A stretch of 64,000 nucleotides of DNA from Gemmatimonadota bacterium (GTDB lineage: Bacteria > Gemmatimonadota > Gemmatimonadetes > Longimicrobiales > Gaopeijiaceae). Shown here in pieces: positions 46,698-52,929 of the stretch (position 1 is the stretch's first letter; every line of letters begins with the position of its first letter). The position numbers and the translations under genes are program-made. The notes below the pieces were generated by a model that did no database searches, was not told where the DNA came from, and saw only the letters and a list, made by a program, of their open reading frames with translations. The stretch lies in NCBI GenBank assembly GCA_022827345.1, contig JAJDTB010000030.1, forward strand, positions 1-64,000, in the 5' to 3' direction.

Positions 46698-47219
46698 TCA
46701 GCTTCCTCCCGATACGTACAGGCGCCCGTTGTCGTCGGGCGCCACCAGAATGACGTCACCGGGGGCGGCGGTGACGCTGGCGTCCAGCGACATGGCCCGC
46801 GCTCCGGGAGCATTCGCATTCGCGGCTTCGGGTACGAATTCCACGACGATGCCGTGGCTGCCGGGAGGGATCGCGAATCGCTCGTAAACCGTGATCGCGC
46901 GGGCGCGGCGGCCGGCTCCCGCCACCGGGCCGGAGCGCAGCGTGTCTCCGTCCAGGAGTATGTCGAGGCGGAAGGGAACAGCTTCGTCCGTGCAGATCTC
47001 CGCAGGACGCATGTGGGGAAGCACGCCCTCGAGCTCGGCATCCGTAGGCGGTCGGCACCGCCGGTCGGAGGGGGCGGGGATGCGCCACGAGACACGCAGC
47101 TCCGCCGCGTCGGCGGGCGGATTCCGCCAATGGACCCGAGAGAGCCACACCATCGTCAGCAATGCGGCGATGGCCAGGAGCGACGCCAGGAATCTCCGCG
47201 GCCAGGTCGTCACGCTCAC
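46698..47219 (-). CDS. Hypothetical membrane-anchored protein
   Basis: A 173-residue protein starting at the GTG at 47219, which overlaps the stop of the cytochrome b fusion gene by three bases. It has one membrane segment (FLASLLAIAALLTMVWLS) and a periplasmic beta-rich domain with two Cys residues (DRRCRPPT, AEICTDE) that could form a disulfide. I know no family; its coupling to the redox fusion gene suggests an accessory subunit. Confidence 0.55.
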   Translation of the reverse strand: MSVTTWPRRFLASLLAIAALLTMVWLSRVHWRNPPADAAELRVSWRIPAPSDRRCRPPTDAELEGVLPHMRPAEICTDEAVPFRLDILLDGDTLRSGPVAGAGRRARAITVYERFAIPPGSHGIVVEFVPEAANANAPGARAMSLDASVTAAPGDVILVAPDDNGRLYVSGGS

Positions 47220-48790
47220 GAGCCGGCCGTGCGACCGGTGCCAGGGAGCGGCGGGTCCTGCGACGCTGCGGTCCCCGCAAGTTCGCATTCCGCCAGGACG
47301 TCGACGTCATCGTCTGCGCCCGGTTGATCGAGGCGGGCAAGGTCGCGGGCGAAATCACCCAGAGCCGCCGCCAGCGACCACGGGTCGAAAGCGGACGCAT
47401 GGGCCACGCGCACGCGCCGCCGGTCCACGCGCGCCTTCAGTTCCGCTTCGCGCTCGTGAAACAGTCGTTCCACCAGCCACTTGGGGCCCTCTCTTCCCGA
47501 GCAGTCGCGGGCCGGGCACGCCACCACCAGCACCCCCCGTGCGCCGGACCGCACAAGGTACTCGACGACCGAGCTGTGCAGATTTCCGGCGCAGGATACG
47601 AGGAACCGCGCGTGGTGCCCGTCCGCTCCGGCGGCGGAGCGGCCGCAGCCGACCAGAACGATGTCCCCGCCCGCCCCCGGGTGCTCACGCACGAAATCCT
47701 TGACACGGCCGAGTTGGTCGCGGCCGGTGCGCCCCGGCGGTCCTACCCCCATCGGCGCACAGGAACCGGCGCAGATGCCGCAACTGACGCAGGCCGAGGG
47801 ATTCACGAGCGCCACCGTGCCCTCGCGGTCGTCGGTACGCTCGACCATCCGGATGGCGTCGTAGGGGCAGTCCGTGTAGCACTGCTCGCAACCGGTGCAG
47901 AGGCGTGTCGATGCGTGGGACGGTGCAGGGCGGCGATCCGCCCGGGGGCGTGTCAACAGCGGTACGGCCAGAAGGGCCGTCCCCGCCGCCACGCCAGCCA
48001 GCCAGACCACGCCGGGGGCGGCGGAGCGCACCCAGGGTAGCCAGAAGGTGTAGAAGATGTCGAGCGTCACCTCTCCGGGAAGGCGGAGGAGATCCGCCGG
48101 CGGTCCGAAGGCGGCGGGAACGGCGAGTGCGGCCACGGTCAGGAGTCCGGTCGTTACCCAGAGGAGCGGCCGCGGCGGCAGCAGGACCGGACGCGCGACA
48201 CGCGACACGTGCAACCACAGGAAGATCACGATCCCGACCGGCACCGCGATGTGCAGGAAGAGGTTCATGAAGAAGAAGGCGGACGGCAGGGCGTCGGCTC
48301 CCGCGAATGCCCGCGAAATCGGCTCCGAGAAGATGGGCAGCGCGTCCAGGAGCCGCGCGCCCTCCGCGGCGAGGAGCTGGCCGTGCGTGTCCCAGACCAT
48401 CACGTAGCCGGTCAGTCCGCAGACATAGAGCAGGAACACGAGGAAGACGCCCGATACCCAGGCGAGCGCCCGCGGCCCCCACGAGCGGCCCTGGCAGAAC
48501 ATCCGCAGCGCGTGCACGAAGACCGCGACCACGGCCAGGTCGGCGGCGTACCTGTGCAGCGACCGGATCCAGCGGCCCCCCCACGGCTGGCCGTCGATCC
48601 GGACGATGGACTCATAGGGGGCACCGATCCGGTAGAAGAGGATCAGGTAGATCCCGGTCACGAGCATGACCGCGAGGCACAACACCGCGAGCCCACCCGA
48701 CTGGTACAGGGGATTCCACTTCGATCCGTAGAGCCGGTCGGCCCAGCCGTCGATTCGACTCAGAACCCGTCCGAGCTGTCGCTTGAGCAT
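47216..48790 (-). CDS. Cytochrome b / 2[4Fe-4S] ferredoxin / MvhD-like fusion protein
   Basis: A 524-residue three-part redox protein. Residues 1-200 form a cytochrome b6-type four-helix unit with both bis-His pairs at the canonical spacing of 14: His79/His93 and His180/His194. Two further membrane helices (about 208-280) follow. A ferredoxin segment has two clusters (Cys298, 301, 304, 308 and Cys334, 337, 340, 344). The C-terminus (about 376-450) resembles the MvhD/FrhD iron-sulfur electron-transfer subunit (Cys382, Cys400, Cys425, Cys430). It probably moves electrons between a cytoplasmic donor and the quinone pool. The ATG at 48790 is preferred to a TTG at 48823. It is divergent from the rrf2 gene. 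Confidence 0.85.
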   Translation of the reverse strand: MLKRQLGRVLSRIDGWADRLYGSKWNPLYQSGGLAVLCLAVMLVTGIYLILFYRIGAPYESIVRIDGQPWGGRWIRSLHRYAADLAVVAVFVHALRMFCQGRSWGPRALAWVSGVFLVFLLYVCGLTGYVMVWDTHGQLLAAEGARLLDALPIFSEPISRAFAGADALPSAFFFMNLFLHIAVPVGIVIFLWLHVSRVARPVLLPPRPLLWVTTGLLTVAALAVPAAFGPPADLLRLPGEVTLDIFYTFWLPWVRSAAPGVVWLAGVAAGTALLAVPLLTRPRADRRPAPSHASTRLCTGCEQCYTDCPYDAIRMVERTDDREGTVALVNPSACVSCGICAGSCAPMGVGPPGRTGRDQLGRVKDFVREHPGAGGDIVLVGCGRSAAGADGHHARFLVSCAGNLHSSVVEYLVRSGARGVLVVACPARDCSGREGPKWLVERLFHEREAELKARVDRRRVRVAHASAFDPWSLAAALGDFARDLARLDQPGADDDVDVLAECELAGTAASQDPPLPGTGRTAGS

Positions 48791-48861
48791 TGACGATGTC
48801 GTGAGAGGCCGAGGGTGGAACAAGCGGGCGCAGTACCCCGGTGGCGCCTTGCGTCGTACTA

Positions 48862-48883
48862 ATGATCATATCATCATGATCTT
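48862..48883. promoter_or_regulatory. Probable Rrf2 operator in the divergent promoter
   Basis: GATCAT-N6-ATGATC (48864-48881) is an 18-bp dyad in an unusually AT-rich patch just ahead of the rrf2 ATG (48895) and between two divergent redox operons. Autoregulation by the Rrf2 protein is the natural inference. Confidence 0.5.
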
Positions 48884-48894
48884 ATCTGGAATAG

Positions 48895-49350
48895 ATGACA
48901 ACCGAAACGATCGAGGTCGGGATGATCTCCAGGACGGCCCAGAACGCCCTTCGCGCCGTGGTGCGCATCGCCGAAGGGCTGTCGTCCGGCCCTGTCTCGG
49001 CGAGGACGCTGGCGCGGGAGCTCGATCTGCCACGGAACTACCTGTCCAAGACACTCTATCGGCTTGTCCAGAACGGTGTGTTGCGCGCGGCCCGCGGCCC
49101 GGGGGGCGGCTACCGCCTCACGGTTCCCGCCGCCGAGCTTCCATTGGGCCGGGTCGTGGACGCGATCGACCCCGAGGGCCCGGAACGCCGCTGCCTGCTG
49201 GGTCGTCCGGAGTGCTCGGAAGTGAACCCGTGCGCGTCGCACCATCGCTGGTGCACGGTTCGGGAAGCCATAGACGCCTTCTTCGACGAAACGACGGTGG
49301 GGGACCTTATCTCCCCGCTGCCTGAAGCCTCTCTCGGGGACCGCATGTAA
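48895..49350 (+). CDS. Rrf2-family transcriptional regulator
   Basis: A 151-residue winged-helix regulator. The DNA-binding half is recognisable (SARTLARELDLPRNYLSKTL, and GVLRAARGPGGGYRLTVPA). Cys residues in CLLGRPEC and NPCASHHRWC are spaced like the iron-sulfur ligands of IscR/NsrR-type proteins, so it is likely to sense NO, iron-sulfur status or redox. It sits between the cytochrome b fusion and the heme-copper oxidase operon and probably controls both. Confidence 0.88.
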   Translation: MTTETIEVGMISRTAQNALRAVVRIAEGLSSGPVSARTLARELDLPRNYLSKTLYRLVQNGVLRAARGPGGGYRLTVPAAELPLGRVVDAIDPEGPERRCLLGRPECSEVNPCASHHRWCTVREAIDAFFDETTVGDLISPLPEASLGDRM

Positions 49351-49379
49351 CCACCCCTCAATCCAAGGAGCGAACATCC

Positions 49380-49574
49380 ATGTCCGAACCCTCTCCGGCA
49401 TCCTCCTCCCAGGCACCGCCCGGCCGCGGGGGGGACCTGCCCGTTCCACGCATGCAGCGGCTCTACGACAGCCCGTTTCTTCTGCTGGCCGCCTGCATCG
49501 TGGTGATGTTCGTGTTCTTCACCGCCTGGGGCGTGTTCGAGATCATGTCCCTCGAACCTGCACCGCTGCCGTAG
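49380..49574 (+). CDS. Small single-helix oxidase subunit (subunit IIa-like)
   Basis: A 64-residue protein with one membrane helix (LLLAACIVVMFVFFTAWGVF), starting at the ATG at 49380 with a good AAGGAG site. Small IIa subunits of this form accompany ba3-type oxidases, supplying the helix missing from a shortened subunit II. It immediately precedes subunit II. Confidence 0.75.
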   Translation: MSEPSPASSSQAPPGRGGDLPVPRMQRLYDSPFLLLAACIVVMFVFFTAWGVFEIMSLEPAPLP

Positions 49575-49589
49575 AGGAGGCTGAAGCCG

Positions 49590-50192
49590 ATGTGCCGAAC
49601 CGGAATAGAGCCGCCGGAACGCGTCTGGTGGAAGAAGGTGGGGCGGCACGAGAAGGTGTGGGTGTGGATCGCCTTCGCCTGGTGCATGGTCCTGTTCGCG
49701 ATGATGCCCGTATGGCATCTGAGAGGCGGCCAGAACCCGTCGGGGATCCGGCACCGGGTCGAGCCCGCCGACTTCCAGGCCAGGGTGGCCGAATTCGTGC
49801 AGGAATACCAGGTGGGAACCGACAACGGTCTCCCCGTGGTGGAGCCGCCGCCCGGGAGCGACGTCTACCTGCAGGCGTCGCAGTATGCATGGATCCCCGT
49901 CGTCCGATTGCGCCAGGGGGCCGAATACACGCTCCACCTGTCGTCCGTGGACGTCAACCACGGCTTCAGCCTGTATCCCCTGAACATCAACTTCCAGGTC
50001 GTTCCGGGTTACGACTACGGGCTTCGCATCGTCCCGAACGAGCCCGGCGAGTTCCACGTCATGTGCAACGAGTTCTGCGGGATCGGCCACCACCTCATGG
50101 TGGGAAAGATCATCGTGGTGCCGGGGGACGCGGCGGCGGAAGCGGAGGACGCGCCGGCGGACGCGTCTTCGAACGTGGGAGGTGACCGATGA
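49590..50192 (+). CDS. Heme-copper oxidase subunit II with CuA site (ba3 type)
   Basis: A 200-residue protein with one membrane helix (WVWIAFAWCMVLFAMMPVW) and a periplasmic cupredoxin domain. The CuA ligands are all present: His124 (VNHGFS), then Cys159, Cys163, His167 and Met170 in CNEFCGIGHHLM. It takes electrons from cytochrome c or a cupredoxin. Its stop overlaps the subunit I start (50189-50192). Confidence 0.92.
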   Translation: MCRTGIEPPERVWWKKVGRHEKVWVWIAFAWCMVLFAMMPVWHLRGGQNPSGIRHRVEPADFQARVAEFVQEYQVGTDNGLPVVEPPPGSDVYLQASQYAWIPVVRLRQGAEYTLHLSSVDVNHGFSLYPLNINFQVVPGYDYGLRIVPNEPGEFHVMCNEFCGIGHHLMVGKIIVVPGDAAAEAEDAPADASSNVGGDR

Positions 50193-51910
50193 GTGCCTTT
50201 CGCACGTGTCCGACCACCGGGCTCCAGGTGCACCGCACGGCCGACCAGCTGATCAAGGCCAACGCGGTCGTGGCGACCGTGGCGCTCCTCGTCGGGGGGA
50301 TCGCGGCGCTGCTCGTGCTGCTGACGCGCTGGGAGGCGGTCCTCCTCCTCGAAGCCGACATGTTCTACCGGATGCTGACCATCCACGGCATGAACATGCT
50401 CATCTTCTTCATCATCTTCTTCGAGATGGCGGTGCTCTACTTCGCCTCCGCCGTGCTGCTCAACTGCAGAATCCCCGCGCCGAAGACCGGCTGGGTCGCA
50501 TTCGTGCTGATGGTGGTGGGGACCCTGATGGTCGAGTGGACGATGTGGACCGGCCGCGCCGACGTCCTGTTCACCTCGTACGTGCCGCTGCGGGCGCATC
50601 CGCTCTTCTATCTGGGGGTGATCCTCTTCGCGGTCGGGGCGCTGACCGTGGTCGGACACTTCTTCGCCATCATCACGGTGGCACGAAAGGAAAAGGCGTA
50701 CGAGGGATCACTTCCGCTGGTCACCTACGGGGCGCTGACGGCGGCCGCGATCGCCGCCGTCACCCTGCTGCACGGTGCGATCATCTACATCCCCACCTTC
50801 CTCTGGTCGCTCGACCTGATGCACGTCGACGCGCAGATGTACCGCCTGATCTGGTGGGGACTGGGGCACTCGTCACAGCAGATCAACGTGGCCGCGATGG
50901 TCTCGATCTGGTATCTGCTCGGCGCGCTCACGGTCGGGTCTGTCGTGCTGAACGAAAAAGTCAGCCGTACGGCGTTCGTCCTCTACGTCCTGTTCATCTC
51001 GATGGCGTCGGCGCACCACCTGCTGGTGGACCCCGGCATGGGCCCGTCGTGGAAGGTCTGGAACACCAGCTACTTCATGTACATGGCGGTGCTGGCGTCG
51101 ATGATTCACGGTTTCACGGTGCCGGCGGGGACGGAACTGGGAATGCGTTTGCGGGGGGCGACGCAAGGGCTCTTCGGGTGGCTGAAGCGGGCGCCCTGGG
51201 GCGATCCCGGGTTCAGTTCGCTGGCGTTCTCGATCGTCGTGTTCGGCTTCGTCGGCGGGATCACGGGGGTGACCTTCGGCACGGAGCAGATCAACATCAT
51301 CGCGCACAACACGCTGCGCATTCCCGGGCATTTCCATGCTACCGTCGTGTCGGGCACGGCGATGGCCTTCATGGGGATCACCTACTACGTGATTCCCCTC
51401 ATCTTCCGGCGTGAAATCGCCTTCTACCGGCTTGCGAAGATCCAGCCGTACCTCTTCGCCATCGGCATGCTGATCTTCTCGATGGCGATGACCTTCGCCG
51501 GGACGTTCGGCGTGCCGCGCCGCCACTGGGACATCGGCTTCAACCAGGCGCTCTTCCAGCCCGAGTTCTCGCCGGCGGTCAACCTGATCATCGGGGTGAT
51601 GGCGGTGGGCGGGCTGATCGCCATCGTGGGCGGCGCGATCTACATCGTGGTCACGGTGGTGTCGGTGTTCTTCGGCAAGAAGATGGCAGCGGACGACTCC
51701 GGGCTGGGTGCGACCGGACGCGGGCTGCCGCCGGGCATCACCAACCCGCCGCGACCGCTCAAGCCGGAGGACAAGGAGGCGCTCGGTCCGTCGGGTCGCC
51801 TGGGTCCGGTCCCGGGCACGATGGTGCTGGTGCTGATCTTCCTGGCCGCGTTCATCATGTACTACTTCGTGAACTGGATGCTGCTGTCGTTCCTGTGGGA
51901 GGTGGGATGA
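50189..51910 (+). CDS. B-type heme-copper oxidase subunit I lacking the active-site Tyr (possible NO reductase)
   Basis: A 573-residue protein with twelve or more helices. Heme and copper ligands are intact: His66 (TIHGMNM), CuB His227 (GLGHSSQQIN), His276 and His277 (SAHHLLVD), and His381 and His383 (GHFHATV). In oxygen reductases the CuB His is followed four residues later by the cross-linked Tyr (HPxVY). Here that position is Gln231. The later helix Tyr (Tyr242, equivalent to ba3 Tyr248) remains. All characterised NO reductases lack the Tyr, so NO reduction is a serious alternative to O2 reduction. It is translationally coupled to subunit II and the SCO gene. Confidence 0.9.
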   Translation: MSAFRTCPTTGLQVHRTADQLIKANAVVATVALLVGGIAALLVLLTRWEAVLLLEADMFYRMLTIHGMNMLIFFIIFFEMAVLYFASAVLLNCRIPAPKTGWVAFVLMVVGTLMVEWTMWTGRADVLFTSYVPLRAHPLFYLGVILFAVGALTVVGHFFAIITVARKEKAYEGSLPLVTYGALTAAAIAAVTLLHGAIIYIPTFLWSLDLMHVDAQMYRLIWWGLGHSSQQINVAAMVSIWYLLGALTVGSVVLNEKVSRTAFVLYVLFISMASAHHLLVDPGMGPSWKVWNTSYFMYMAVLASMIHGFTVPAGTELGMRLRGATQGLFGWLKRAPWGDPGFSSLAFSIVVFGFVGGITGVTFGTEQINIIAHNTLRIPGHFHATVVSGTAMAFMGITYYVIPLIFRREIAFYRLAKIQPYLFAIGMLIFSMAMTFAGTFGVPRRHWDIGFNQALFQPEFSPAVNLIIGVMAVGGLIAIVGGAIYIVVTVVSVFFGKKMAADDSGLGATGRGLPPGITNPPRPLKPEDKEALGPSGRLGPVPGTMVLVLIFLAAFIMYYFVNWMLLSFLWEVG

Positions 51911-52929
51911 GCGCGGAGTCACCGGCGCGGGGAAGCCGTCCGCCGCCGCCGGACGGCCGTCACGGTGGGGAGGAGCGGGCGCGGCCGCGGGGGGATGGCC
52001 GCGGCCCCTCCGCGGTTGCCGCGCGGGGAGCACTGGCGGCCCTGGCCGGGCTGCTCGTGATCACCGTGGCATGGTGGGCCCTGGCGCTCTGGCCCGTGCA
52101 GGGAGTTCCCCCGGCCTGGCTGGAACGCGCCCGCCTGGTGTGTTTCAATACCGGGCCCTCCGGCCTGCCCGACGCTTCGGGGTGGCTGCTCCTGGTGGGG
52201 CAGCCGATCGGGATGCTGGCGGTGCTCATGGTGATCGCGGGCGATGCCGTGCGGGCGGGGCTCCGGCGGGCGTTCGCGTCCCCGGCGGGGCTGCTCGGGG
52301 TCGCGGGGGGCTCCGGGGTGCTCGTGGCGGGGTTGGTGCTGGCCGTTCTGCGCGTCGCGGACGCCCCGCTCGACTCCGAGTGGCTGGAGACGGCGCGGGC
52401 CGATGTGCCTGCCACCTACCCGCGCGTCGATCGCCGTCTTCCACCGGTCGACCTCGTGGACCAGCGCGGCGACGCGTTCAACTGGGGCCGCGTCGCGGGG
52501 CGCCCGACCCTCCTCACCTTCGGCTTCGGCCACTGTGCGACCATCTGTCCGATGACCGTGATGAACGCGCGGCAGGTCCAGGATCGGTTCAGTGGCGAGG
52601 GGAGAGAGATGGCGCTGGTGGTGATCACCCTCGACCCCTGGCGGGACACGCCCGCGCGGCTCCCGGCGCTGGCGCGGCAGTTTCATCTCGTTGCGGCGGA
52701 CGCGGACGGCGACGCGGAAGGCGGCGGCGACCTGTCCTATCTGCTCTCCGGCACCGTGGAGGGGGTGAACGCGGCGCTGGACTCACTCCAGGTAGCGCGA
52801 CAGCGCGTGCCCGAGACGGGGGACATCGTCCACCCGGCGCTGGTCTACCTGCTCGACGCGGAGGGCACGATCGTCTACGCGGCAAGCGGACACGCCGACC
52901 TGATCGAGGAGCTGGCGCGCCGCATGTGA
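51907..52929 (+). CDS. SCO1/SenC-family copper-delivery protein with extra membrane helices
   Basis: A 340-residue protein. A disordered N-terminus is followed by about three membrane helices (around 40-60, 90-110 and 128-148), then a thioredoxin-fold SCO domain. Its copper ligands are Cys210 and Cys214 (GHCATICPM) and His309 (DIVHPALVYLLD). SCO proteins load copper into CuA of subunit II. The overlap with the subunit I stop (51907-51910) fits that role. The multi-helix N-terminal extension is unusual; most SCO proteins have a single anchor. Confidence 0.88.
   Translation: MSAESPARGSRPPPPDGRHGGEERARPRGDGRGPSAVAARGALAALAGLLVITVAWWALALWPVQGVPPAWLERARLVCFNTGPSGLPDASGWLLLVGQPIGMLAVLMVIAGDAVRAGLRRAFASPAGLLGVAGGSGVLVAGLVLAVLRVADAPLDSEWLETARADVPATYPRVDRRLPPVDLVDQRGDAFNWGRVAGRPTLLTFGFGHCATICPMTVMNARQVQDRFSGEGREMALVVITLDPWRDTPARLPALARQFHLVAADADGDAEGGGDLSYLLSGTVEGVNAALDSLQVARQRVPETGDIVHPALVYLLDAEGTIVYAASGHADLIEELARRM

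Follow-up and report, generated by a model that had tools for sequence, protein, structure and literature searches.

The window analysed here, a stretch of 64,000 nucleotides from a Gemmatimonadota bacterium, contains on its forward strand an operon (48895–52929) encoding, in this order, an Rrf2-family regulator, a one-helix protein, subunits II and I of a heme-copper enzyme, and an SCO/SenC protein. The ORF for the one-helix protein and a divergently oriented gene on the other side of the regulator, both of which were absent from the original prediction, also belong to the locus, which comprises the following features:

47216–48823, minus strand: cytochrome b–2x[4Fe-4S]–FlpD fusion, divergent from the predicted eNOR genes
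48868–48885, plus strand: putative operator ATATCATCATGATCTTAT, an imperfect inverted repeat in the divergent intergenic region
48895–49350, plus strand: Rrf2-family regulator, likely start at 48922, Fe-S-type cysteines C100, C107 and C113
49380–49574, plus strand: small single-helix subunit (IIa/CbaC-like), 64 aa, motif VPxMQRLxDxPFLLL...WGxxEI
49590–50192, plus strand: predicted eNOR subunit II with CuA site, Glu21 corresponding to ba3 Glu15 (K-pathway entry)
50189–51910, plus strand: predicted eNOR subunit I (B-family heme-copper catalytic subunit), 573 aa, Pfam COX1 200.9 bits
51895–52929, plus strand: SCO1/SenC copper chaperone, likely ATG at 51907, overlapping the subunit I stop

Searches with phmmer against solved structures matched subunit I to the A. 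aeolicus oxidase (E 1.5e-46) and to subunit I of the Thermus thermophilus ba3 enzyme (E about 4e-44), and ba3 oxidases were also the top solved matches of its AlphaFold model (pTM 0.84). The histidine ligands of the hemes and of CuB, previously described as intact, could all be located (H66, H227, H276, H277, H381 and H383). In the phmmer alignment, the segment GHSSQQ falls on GHPIVY of the T. thermophilus protein, and thus Gln231 (codon 50879–50881) takes the place of the cross-linked ba3 residue Tyr237, which lies on the helix of the CuB histidine in ba3-type oxygen reductases. This assignment, likewise part of the original prediction, is borne out by the homologues: Gln is fixed at this position in 124/124 aligned proteins, down to about 44% identity, whereas Tyr is present in 25/25 related B-family oxidases, a set that includes paralogues from the window's own relatives as well as plasmid-borne ba3-type enzymes. 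As judged from these alignments, the Gln is a real feature of the family and no chance substitution. Further fixed differences between the Gln proteins and the oxidases are V/I238 for Tyr (ba3 Tyr244), H307 for Thr (ba3 Thr312), N233 for Trp, Q230 for Val and Y266 for Phe. The latter residue, located ten positions N-terminal of the CuB His pair, is invariant in all 124 Gln-type proteins and replaced by Phe in 24/25 oxidases; Tyr266 may serve as a radical or proton donor. One of the 124 homologues, encoded on a Thermus thermophilus plasmid (L034:9983-11668), has GHFK for GHFH, its low-spin heme His seemingly being exchanged for Lys.

The stop codon of the subunit II gene overlaps the start of the subunit I gene (ATGA), and its product aligns with ba3 subunit II. 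The CuA site was correctly predicted to be complete: the residues H124, C159, E161, C163, H167 and M170 are each conserved in 132–133 of the 133 homologues, and Glu21 is kept in 132/133. A simple scan detected a small ORF comparable to the one at 49380–49574 immediately before the subunit II gene in 50/77 loci. SCO proteins are found together with any CuA enzyme, and the downstream SCO gene, which had been taken to favour an NO reductase over an oxidase, is therefore non-discriminating. In the corresponding Defluviimonas cluster (L033:9718-10599), a heme O synthase-like UbiA gene is inserted between subunit I and SCO, a hint that the high-spin heme of that organism may be of the o or a type; the operon in the window is devoid of such a gene.

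Within the same genus, 17 of the 23 genomes sampled have an orthologue; among the other relatives sampled, the figure is 15 of 75. Scanning named genomes yielded 80 loci, nearly all in Pseudomonadota; in Bacteroidota 13/296 genomes possess the enzyme, and the Defluviimonas and Thermus loci were contributed by plasmids. On a plasmid of Thioclava nitratireducens (L183:1723-2809), an eNOR-like subunit I gene is broken, annotated as two pieces and located next to an IS5 transposase. To place the protein, a maximum-likelihood tree was calculated after removal of columns 231, 238 and 307, from a data set without named sNOR, bNOR and gNOR references and without named Natronomonas or Chloroflexi eNORs. 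In this tree, the Gln proteins and the Tyr oxidases form two separate clades, each with a support of 100, and a single change of state between Gln and Tyr suffices to explain the distribution. Subunit I from the window thus lies outside the oxidase clade, as the original prediction demanded, and within the Gln clade, which also includes what is very probably the eNOR of Rhodothermus marinus (L159; motif GHGSQQ). An eNOR-bearing contig binned as Saprospiraceae (L061) clusters with Hyphomicrobiaceae in the same tree, reflecting either horizontal transfer or misbinning.

The residue occupying the position of the cross-linked Tyr differs between the families of the superfamily: O2 reductases have Tyr, cNOR and qNOR have Glu, gNOR has Asp, eNOR has Gln (PMC8756737 Table A4), and sNOR as well as the Bacillus CuA-NOR have Asn (PMC8756737). 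Gln at this site has been used to define eNOR (PMC8756737), which is one of four biochemically characterised NOR families (PMC11388526). The diagnostic Gln231 together with the clade shared with the probable R. marinus enzyme places the window protein in eNOR, and, likewise as expected for this group, subunit I is preceded by the gene for a subunit II of the cupredoxin (CuA) type. The enzyme is thus an added member of an already known subfamily, said to go back to Hemp and Gennis 2008, with the R. marinus enzyme reportedly described by Murali et al. 2024. Taken as a whole, the sequence evidence is best explained by an eNOR-type nitric oxide reductase that converts 2 NO to N2O, a reading we regard as very probable, and the original proposal of an NO reductase instead of a terminal oxidase is upheld by this placement. 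The comparison with Bacillus azotoformans made at that time holds only in part: the enzyme of this organism indeed lacks the Tyr and has CuA, but it belongs to a different subfamily, having Asn where the window protein has Gln; all in all, NORs carry Glu, Gln, Asp or Asn instead of the Tyr (PMC3475470).

Could the enzyme belong to another B-family NOR group, i.e. sNOR, bNOR (CuANOR) or gNOR? The SenC/SCO neighbour and the CuA subunit are shared with sNOR and bNOR, and we ourselves initially arrived at sNOR from this context and from the Nitrosomonas/Nitrosococcus literature; this identity was dropped, as sNOR has Asn and eNOR has Gln (PMC8756737). Since every member of the window clade carries Gln rather than the Asn of sNOR and bNOR or the Asp of gNOR, we consider an assignment to any of these groups exceedingly improbable. 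The C-family NorB proteins of cNOR and qNOR, with their Glu, do not fit either, as the best matches of subunit I are B-family proteins and the residue is Gln. B-type enzymes can show mixed O2/NO activity, and another competitor is a high-affinity O2 reductase that employs a Tyr from elsewhere, for instance Tyr266, in the way C-type oxidases borrow theirs from another helix. The invariance of Tyr266 in the Gln clade and its replacement by Phe in the oxidases would suit such a scenario. In C-type enzymes, as in the cbb3 structures, the Tyr precedes the CuB His pair by six residues. At this position, Leu or Ile is found in all 124 proteins, so that the Tyr from another helix that would have spoken against the original prediction did not turn up there; Tyr266 lies one helical turn beyond. 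Moreover, a Tyr-bearing A-type oxidase is already present in the genome. For the sNOR of Nitrosomonas, a related enzyme, a function as high-affinity oxidase has been suggested (PMC6967387), but eNOR itself is described as a biochemically characterised family of NO reductases (PMC11388526). Hence, we judge O2 reduction with a relocated Tyr to be very improbable and retain the assignment as eNOR.

As an eNOR, subunit I would hold a low-spin heme b, a high-spin heme and CuB, and would be joined by the CuA subunit II, the one-helix subunit and the copper chaperone. A periplasmic cytochrome c or a cupredoxin may deliver electrons to CuA, from where they would reach the binuclear centre by way of the low-spin heme; there, 2 NO + 2 e- + 2 H+ would yield N2O + H2O, with Gln standing in for the cross-linked Tyr that O2 reduction requires. 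The protons are probably taken up on the cytoplasmic side and conducted by a modified K pathway involving Glu21 of subunit II and Tyr242, Ser304 and His307 of subunit I; a single proton channel is predicted for eNORs. Of the K-path residues in subunit I, Tyr242 and Ser304 are retained, and the equivalents of ba3 Tyr244 and Thr312 are changed to Val/Ile and His, respectively.

The regulator gene lies directly upstream, as originally noted, and its product passes the Rrf2 superfamily model (99.7 bits, cut-off 73.3). Its cysteines are spaced C100-x6-C107-x5-C113. The protein fails the NCBIfam NsrR model (30 bits, cut-off 182) and also the IscR model (70 bits, cut-off 207.55). With a score far below the NsrR cut-off and only the general Rrf2 model passed, the label 'NsrR-like' attached to it earlier is not demonstrated. 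The core CATATCATCATG of the inverted repeat is found again in front of most orthologous Rrf2 genes, including cases in which the regulators are only about 45% identical. At full match, ATATCATCATGATCTTAT is unique in its own genome and not expected by chance within the window. A search of this genome with the operator pattern yielded no convincing second target, the two loci with three mismatches being located next to peptidase-like or uncharacterised genes. It is plausible that ATATCATCATGATCTTAT is a candidate operator shared by the Rrf2 gene and the divergent cytochrome b gene, a suggestion drawn from sequence conservation. In this case, an Fe-S Rrf2 regulator would control eNOR, and the divergent cytochrome b protein would probably be co-controlled. 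Most Bacteroidota eNORs accompanied by the cytochrome b gene also have an Rrf2 homologue nearby. In other phyla, hemerythrin, NnrS, Crp/Fnr regulators and a radical-SAM protein are encoded in the neighbourhood; the Thermus eNORs have Rrf2 and DUF542/ScdA_N genes as neighbours, which are positioned downstream on the T. thermophilus plasmid (L034).

The genome contains two COX1 genes only, the second one encoding the A-type oxidase, with the motif GHPEVY. Models for NirK and NosZ returned nothing above cut-off in this genome or the rest of the genus, cytochrome d1 (NirS) gave no match at all in the same set, and no NOR besides eNOR was found in the window's own genome. Absence of these denitrification enzymes and presence of the Tyr-bearing A-type oxidase make detoxification of NO, or use of NO released by others, likelier than denitrification. 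The role here is probably NO detoxification or NO respiration at low oxygen. Among relatives outside the genus, NirK occurs in 9/15 genomes with eNOR as compared to 11/60 without it (p = 0.002, with genomes treated as independent). The finding of eNOR but of no nitrite or N2O reductase in this lineage speaks for removal of NO more than for denitrification. As genes of this kind are usually annotated as cytochrome oxidases, organisms producing N2O from NO are overlooked in genome surveys.

The less expected part of the locus, and the one worth pursuing, is the conserved partner encoded by the divergent gene. This protein combines a cytochrome b of the two-heme type with two [4Fe-4S] motifs and an FlpD domain; its structure model is confident (pTM 0.83), and Foldseek returned only bc1/b6f cytochrome b among the matches listed. 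Of the 98 relatives, those with eNOR all encode a full-length homologue (32/32), as opposed to 1/66 of those without eNOR (p about 5e-25, relatedness ignored), and in the single exception the contig ends on the side where eNOR would be expected. Elsewhere, the gene follows the eNOR genes on the same strand in 72 of 73 testable loci, i.e. loci in which the partner was seen or more than 1.5 kb of downstream sequence was available without it; the only testable locus lacking it is that of Candidatus Parabeggiatoa. Across 79 sequences, there is no variation in the four heme His, the eight cluster Cys or the three FlpD Cys. The Bacteroidota homologues (L164-L170) are longer, about 610–740 aa, owing to an extra C-terminal part. 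One may argue that an unrelated gene came to lie close to eNOR by chance or local synteny, as it is on the opposite strand in the window and has no counterpart next to the eNORs of Thermus and of the Rhodothermus-like genomes. However, co-occurrence in the relatives, recurrence in other phyla and the invariant heme and cluster ligands all speak against coincidence, which we deem very improbable.

The protein probably works together with eNOR, most likely as an electron conduit that links a cytosolic donor (Fe-S or flavin) with either the quinone pool or the chain of eNOR. Our literature search, the scope of which did not include the main 2024 eNOR paper, retrieved no account of the gene as an eNOR partner. 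We tentatively propose that most sampled eNORs have this cytochrome b-2x[4Fe-4S]-FlpD protein as a near-obligate partner, tying NO reduction to a cytosolic Fe-S/flavin donor and, in the present organism, subject to the same Rrf2 operator, and that they represent an undescribed branch of NO respiration/detoxification distinct from the Rhodothermus/Thermus eNORs; we regard this proposal as possible rather than probable. If confirmed, the partner would serve as a marker of eNORs of this type, and it would raise a testable question on the source of electrons.

Among known systems, the R. marinus eNOR is similar in having a B-family subunit I with Gln, a CuA subunit II, the full set of His and the proton-entry Glu; the window enzyme and the probable R. 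marinus protein are about 45–48% identical and fall into a common supported clade, but the cytochrome b-FeS-FlpD gene present in the window does not occur at the loci of Thermus and of the Rhodothermus-like genomes. The NorSY-SenC system (sNOR) of Nitrosomonas/Nitrosococcus shares the CuA subunit and the SenC/SCO gene, sometimes has NsrR nearby, and differs by Asn, according to the literature, at the site of the Gln. Similarly, the bNOR/qCuANOR of Bacillus azotoformans is a B-family enzyme with CuA, a small subunit and SCO, but has Asn and an adjacent six-helix protein instead of Gln and the cytochrome b-FeS-FlpD protein. Finally, the T. thermophilus ba3 oxidase agrees in fold, heme/CuB ligands, CuA, Glu15 of subunit II and the equivalents of Tyr248 and Ser309, whereas its Tyr237, Tyr244 and Thr312 are replaced by Gln, Val/Ile and His, respectively, in the enzyme of the window.
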